Shown: positions 8,379 through 31,140 of the stretch, one piece after another | How positions within the stretch are numbered: position 1 is the stretch's first letter | How the letters are laid out: the number at the start of each line of letters is the position of its first letter | DNA from: Bacteroidales bacterium | GTDB taxonomy: Bacteria > Bacteroidota > Bacteroidia > Bacteroidales > Bacteroidaceae | Direction: 5' to 3' | Length of the DNA stretch: 35,423 nt | Assembly (NCBI GenBank): GCA_022788345.1 | Contig: JALFTM010000188.1 | Span: forward strand, 1-35,423 | Program-made: the position numbers and the translations under genes | Notes under the pieces: generated by a model | What the model was told of the DNA's origin: nothing | What the model saw: only the letters and a program-made list of their open reading frames with translations | The model's database searches: none

Positions 8379-8652
8379 TACGTGTTTTGCTATATCAGCG
8401 TTGCAAATATATAAATATAATTTTGACATCTGACATGGTTGCCTTATTTATTTTCTTAAACGAAACACTTTTTAATTTATACTACCCCTAAAATTGTTAA
8501 TTGGAGATGTCATTTTCCCAACACTAAAAATGGCTCAGAAATGCCGCACCCTTATCGTTTCCCTCCCACCCCAAAGAAACGCACAACTCTATGATTTTCA
8601 TTAAAATAAAGCATAAAAAACACAACTCACACAGGGCTATAAAACAAGTCGC

Positions 8653-8716
8653 CCACTTGTGTTTTCTGGAAGCGCAGGAAGAAAATCTTTCCTGCGCTTC
8701 CAGAAAACACAAGTGG
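8653..8716. repeat. Perfect 28-bp inverted repeat with 8-nt loop
   Basis: ccacttgtgttttctggaagcgcaggaa / gaaaatct / ttcctgcgcttccagaaaacacaagtgg; all 28 positions pair. Confidence 0.97.
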
Positions 8717-8838
8717 CGCAAGAAGGAAATGCGAAGAACATTATGGGAAAATTTTTCGCTTTTATGGCAGTTCACAAGCCTCTCAAAATGTTGATTTTAC
8801 TAAAAAAACAAAGCTTCTTAGCTTACATTTATTAACGA

Positions 8839-20365: not shown

Positions 20366-20549
20366 CCCTGCGCTAAAAAACTTTCTTCTTCACGCACGAG
20401 AACTTTAGTTCGCACTGCAATCTACATAACTCGCAGTGCAGATTATATAATTCGCAGTGCAATTTATATAACTCACAATGCAAACTAAAGTTTTGCTCCG
20501 CTTACAAGAAACTTTCCTTACGCAGGGAGCAAAGTTTTTTAGCGCAAGG
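20366..20549. repeat. Intergenic element A: 21-bp-phased heptamer array inside nested inverted repeats
   Basis: Outer IR ccctgcgctaaaaaacttt (20366-20384) / aaagttttttagcgcaagg (20531-20549), 18/19. Inner IR aactttagtt (20401-20410) / aactaaagtt (20483-20492), perfect. Heptamers gcactgc, gcagtgc, gcagtgc, acaatgc start at 20412, 20433, 20454, 20475. Confidence 0.9.
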
Positions 20550-20583
20550 AAGTAAGTTTCTTGGCACAAGGAGATGAAATGCG

Positions 20584-30985: not shown

Positions 30986-31140
30986 TGCGCAAGAAAAGTT
31001 GCTTCAAAGCGCGAGAAAAGTTTAGAACGCACTGCAATTTACATAAACTACACTGCGAGTTATATAGATTGCAGTGCGATTTATATAGCTCACACTGCAA
31101 AACGAACTTTCTTAGCGCATCGCAGTAAGTTTTGCTCCGC
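30986..31140. repeat. Intergenic element B: second 21-bp-phased heptamer array, related to element A
   Basis: Heptamers gcactgc, acactgc, gcagtgc, acactgc start at 31029, 31050, 31071, 31092. Imperfect IR tgcgcaagaaaagtt (30986-31000) / aactttcttagcgca (31105-31119). Shares the exact 14-mer aagttttgctccgc (31127-31140) with element A (20488-20501). Confidence 0.88.

Follow-up and report, generated by a model that had tools for sequence, protein, structure and literature searches.

Dispersed palindromes with a regional bias are known from the MatP/matS, SlmA/SBS and Noc/NBS systems. The matS sites mark the terminus, from which SBS and NBS are excluded; each is a single site of 12–14 bp belonging to one class. 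Phased direct repeats that are bound cooperatively are known as iterons and operator arrays, and the ends of Tn7- and Mu-type elements carry multiple transposase sites of ~22 bp. In Bacteroidales, Porphyromonas gingivalis has the BrickBuilt MITE, which outside this species has been found only in P. gulae; it is intergenic and consists of a variable number of short tandem units (23 nt, AGAYCATARTATCCTCTCRTRTG) with flanking inverted repeats, its TIR (GAGACCTTTGCA) being IS5-like (PMC4596501). The REP/REPIN sequences with RAYT are intergenic palindromic repeats of several classes (PMC3116915).

The locus studied here, element A, was found in a window of 35,423 nucleotides (the whole stretch of DNA analysed). 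It shares with BrickBuilt the intergenic position, the variable count of tandem units and the flanking inverted repeats, but its units are palindromic and the period of such arrays is 21–22 bp instead of 23. In contrast to REP/REPIN, the arrays lack RAYT, keep a strict 21/22-bp phase and are evenly spaced along the chromosome. Unlike iterons and operator arrays they are dispersed chromosome-wide with interchangeable classes, and unlike matS, SBS and NBS, whose regional bias they share (as seen on one chromosome), they are phased and have 3–6 sites each. The open-access literature yielded no description of such arrays. Our analysis suggests an undescribed set of putative protein-binding landmarks in Bacteroidaceae chromosomes. 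Little is known about chromosome organisation and segregation in Bacteroidota, a dominant gut phylum, and evenly spaced, zoned arrays provide a defined bait sequence for finding the responsible proteins, which makes the question testable.

Architecture of element A

Four GCASTGC-like palindromes follow one another upstream of mnmA with a period of exactly 21 bp: GCACTGC (20412–20418), GCAGTGC (20433–20439), GCAGTGC (20454–20460) and ACAATGC (20475–20481). These heptamers and their register had been described in an earlier sequence-only reading, and re-reading of the sequence bore out their positions. The two inverted repeats described there were also found in place: a perfect 10-bp inner repeat (AACTTTAGTT at 20401 and AACTAAAGTT at 20483) and a 19-nt outer repeat (95%) with its left arm at 20366–20384 on the plus strand and its right arm at 20531–20549 on the minus strand.

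Both ends of the core are flanked by AAASTTT palindromes, which continue its phase at ±12 and then at 22 bp. The inner inverted repeat is the pair of these sites located 12 bp outside the outermost heptamers: its left half is the AAASTTT-type site at 20400–20406 (−12 from the first core) and its right half the site at 20487–20493 (+12 from the last core), both present in 9/9 copies. The outer inverted repeat likewise belongs to this phased flank and contains the next AAASTTT sites, at 20378–20384 in the left arm (−34 from the first core) and at 20531–20537 in the right arm (+119 on the same count). Alignment and flank scan of the nine four-site copies revealed the further sites 22 bp outward in 6/9 copies (−34) and in 7/9 copies (+97, corresponding to 20509–20515); the site at +119 and an AAASTTT-type site at +141 (20553–20559) belong to copy A. 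The whole composite array of core and phased flanks occupies 20366–20559 and, like its sites, is not assigned to a strand.

The second copy, element B (30999–31133, also unstranded), is situated 10.6 kb from element A and has cores at 31029, 31050, 31071 and 31092 together with the AAASTTT flanks. A scan of the 35-kb window for phased palindromic arrays (direct and inverted periodicity) returned element A, element B (at 31022) and, at 8652, one plain inverted repeat; the same scan of the shuffled window gave no matches. The repeat at 8652–8717 is long and near-perfect (CCCACTTGTGTTTTCTGGAAGCGCAGG...) and is probably an ordinary terminator.

Copies in the genome and in related bacteria

The genome of the window (G000; 2.09 Mb in 268 contigs) contains 11 diverged copies, all of them intergenic, so the family extends beyond A and B; nine copies have four sites each, another has three and the remaining one two. 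Identity among them is ~70–81% where the alignment is good. The two-site pattern gave 61 matches in this genome (mostly both-strand readings of ~30 places) vs 1 for the reversed control. Genomes of the same genus keep the register with different cores, e.g. TTTCACASTGTGAAA. With ≤2 mismatches allowed, 45 of the 400 family genomes match the three-site pattern, a few of them by chance, and the 21-bp register is kept in 13 of the 30 sampled genera; controls gave 0–1 in nearly all. Across the order the three-site register is nearly confined to Bacteroidaceae. Among the named organisms with such arrays are Bacteroides mediterraneensis (two genomes), B. caecigallinarum, Phocaeicola MAGs and Candidatus Caccomonas pullistercoris, the array locus of the last having the same sequence as in the same-genus genome G031. 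No matches to the arrays were found on plasmids or phages. A 359-kb sequence of a viral collection (IMGVR_UViG_3300035698_035310, L165:2600–2850) contains at least six TCACAGTGTGA palindromes ~19–22 bp apart.

Array classes and their spacing

The case for even spacing and zonation comes from relatives of the window's own, fragmented genome. The main one is the single-contig chromosome of B. mediterraneensis (LT635783, 4.03 Mb; G441), which has 20 arrays of class T1, the class of element A. Scanning 2.38 Mb of this chromosome de novo gave 91 matches vs 1 in locally shuffled DNA. Five sequence classes account for 80 of the 91: T1 (CACASTGTG, period 21), T2 (GTTTCC-6-GGAAAC-RTAY), T3 (GCGTTT-6-AAACGC-4), T4 (AGTACT-8-AGTACT-2) and T5 (TCACGNNCGTGA); the period of T2–T5 is 22. 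The other 11 appear to be mostly low-complexity or coding.

The arrays are separated by a minimum of about 8 kb, with typical intervals of about 20–30 kb. Compared with uniform placement over all DNA, genic and intergenic alike, the contiguous 1.47-Mb block at 1.05–2.52 Mb has 0/44 gaps <8 kb vs 9.6 expected (median 23 kb), and this absence was not reached in 20,000 simulations. The block at 0.40–0.96 Mb contains one gap <8 kb and has a coefficient of variation of 0.40 vs 0.93 (P=5e-5). T1 and T3 taken together over the whole chromosome give 66 gaps with a minimum of 8.2 kb, and the closest unlike T1/T3 neighbours are 11.5 kb apart; in both counts the T3 arrays beyond 3.0 Mb are those among the matches listed. 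The T1-like arrays among the matches listed for G002, which belongs to the same genus as the window, show 0/31 gaps <7.5 kb vs 8.0 expected. The three largest array-free gaps of the contiguous block (1.52–1.66, 1.72–1.82 and 2.05–2.14 Mb) hold either genes of conjugative transposons (TraG, TraM) or a defence-like island with methylase/SIR2 genes.

Zonation of the classes

GC skew (20-kb samples) places the terminus of G441 near 1.8–1.95 Mb. Its sign is irregular near 0.08 and 3.9 Mb (inverted near both ends), and the published assembly may contain scaffold errors. T1 is absent from 1.04–2.73 Mb (1.7 Mb, 42% of the chromosome; largest-gap P=6.6e-4), and this T1-free zone is centred on the GC-skew terminus. 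The share of T1 is 6/19 arrays in 0.40–0.96 Mb vs 0/45 in 1.05–2.52 Mb (Fisher 3.6e-4), and that of T3 is 3/19 vs 33/45 in the same blocks (Fisher 2.8e-5). T1 and T3 differ in distance to the terminus with P ~2e-6 for any terminus in 1.80–1.95 Mb, the T3 positions >3.0 Mb being among the matches listed for G290, which has the same coordinates as G441. Thus T1 is excluded from the terminus as SBS and NBS are, and T3 is enriched there, where matS is found; our case for zonation comes from the one chromosome tested, G441.

Interpretation of the arrays

We infer that element A is an array of binding sites in double-stranded DNA and belongs to a Bacteroidaceae-wide, evenly spaced and class-zoned set, the most likely role of which is that of chromosomal landmarks or anchors (probability of roughly 0.5). 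With palindromic sites every two helical turns and dyads ~10.5–12 bp apart, dimers would be aligned on one face of the DNA, so that cooperative binding would be possible. Putative proteins binding the arrays, possibly with a separate paralog for each class, would serve to organise the chromosome, to segregate it or to demarcate it, as in the matS/SBS/NBS systems; HU-HIG expansions in Bacteroidetes were considered as candidate binders. The phasing, dispersal, classes, spacing and zonation and the independence of the palindrome arms can be read from the sequences themselves; protein binding, cooperativity and a chromosomal function, probably architectural, are what we deduce. A more elaborate scheme is proposed tentatively: a chromosome-addressing or domain-organising system of interchangeable class-zoned arrays with class-specific proteins, which would be unrelated in sequence to matS, SBS, NBS and parS and in which classes would be exchanged at fixed positions. 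The minimum spacing across classes, together with the class exchange at one locus (see below), suggests that the position and architecture of an array matter more than its exact sequence. If so, the arrays would show that evolution can preserve the even spacing of DNA landmarks even as their sequences change.

The sequence-only reading had offered two possibilities, a phased protein-binding array and the internal part of a MITE/REP-like element. The former is supported, and the latter is disfavoured by the lack of a Y1/RAYT gene, the lack of a detected target-site duplication (a weak test), the orthologous positions of most sampled copies, the even spacing and the class differences at one locus. 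As a MITE, each array would be a non-autonomous mobile element having ends with multiple phased transposase sites, and target immunity would produce the even spacing. Such an origin would agree with the dispersed intergenic copies, the minimum spacing between arrays and the terminal inverted repeats of element A, a MITE trait present there in imperfect form, but the spacing also holds between unlike classes, identity among copies does not exceed the range given above, and plasmids and phages are devoid of matches. No target-site duplication signal was obtained, though both ends were called in only 9 of 30 elements, some of them wrongly. Most sampled copies occupy orthologous positions in sister species, and for An793 about ten array loci correspond to array loci there. 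Between sisters, the array is better conserved than its intergenic flank at some loci and worse at others; the greater divergence of the array at the latter is unlike a simple conserved site. At two further orthologous intergenic loci (G441 712.7 kb and 2791.9 kb vs L145 and L160) the classes differ between sister species, the sister carrying T2 (22-bp period) instead of T1 between the same genes. Since both loci compared in the empty-site check were occupied by another array class, insertion into an empty site was not seen there. We regard the mobile-element origin as unlikely. BrickBuilt itself was rejected: its 23-nt unit is absent at ≤3 mismatches and its TIR does not occur in element A.

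It is still less probable that the arrays are operators or other local regulatory sites of a transcription factor. This would be in line with their intergenic location, with element A lying just upstream of mnmA and with T1 being often located between divergent genes, but arrays in G441 are mixed in gene orientation and T1 occurs in all orientations, the spacing is even and several classes replace one another. An effect on the mnmA operon had been considered in the sequence-only reading; a special link to this gene is unsupported because copies occur in every gene orientation.

A similarly small probability is assigned to transcribed structured RNAs or bidirectional terminators acting as hairpins. 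The units are palindromic, and T3 and T4, unlike T1, are enriched between convergent genes in G441 (15/36 and 5/5, respectively), the T3 arrays having A-runs at the start and T-runs at the end; some classes (T3/T4) may thus be terminators. As a reading of the whole set, terminators were rejected in view of T1, which is found in all orientations, T3 and T4 fitting in part. Hairpin arms should show compensatory changes, but variable arm positions are independent (Fisher p=1.0 for T3 and for the G000 heptamers) and T2 has no covariation; the central C/G is complementary in 56/93 adjacent pairs and in 24/57 nested T1 pairs. With independent arms and a free central C/G, the palindromes look like half-sites read by proteins in double-stranded DNA. 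The exact helical phasing also speaks against hairpins. No Rfam family matched the arrays at the curated cut-off, and an Rfam structured RNA was rejected.

A population of REP/REPIN repeats dispersed by a RAYT (Y1) transposase would correspond to short palindromes between genes, to the presence of several classes in one genome and to long persistence, but it is highly improbable and already largely refuted, as PF01797 was found in 0/3 genomes (G000 and the two of B. mediterraneensis), with control genomes positive. Element A matches no catalogued family among those compared (Rfam, RAYT/REPIN, BrickBuilt, plasmid, phage); the sequence-only reading had not recognised one either.

Relation to known sites and variation of T3

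Known matS, SBS, NBS and parS sites were rejected as well, their consensus motifs being missing from the arrays at ≤1 mismatch. The half-sites of T1 and T2 (TTTCAC, TTTCCC) are similar to those of parS and NBS but have at least three extra bases between them; this is a resemblance only. T3-like arrays in six other genomes (G170, G184, G101, G299, G158 and G085) keep the AAACG...CGTTT ends or close variants of them, and their central bases vary between species.
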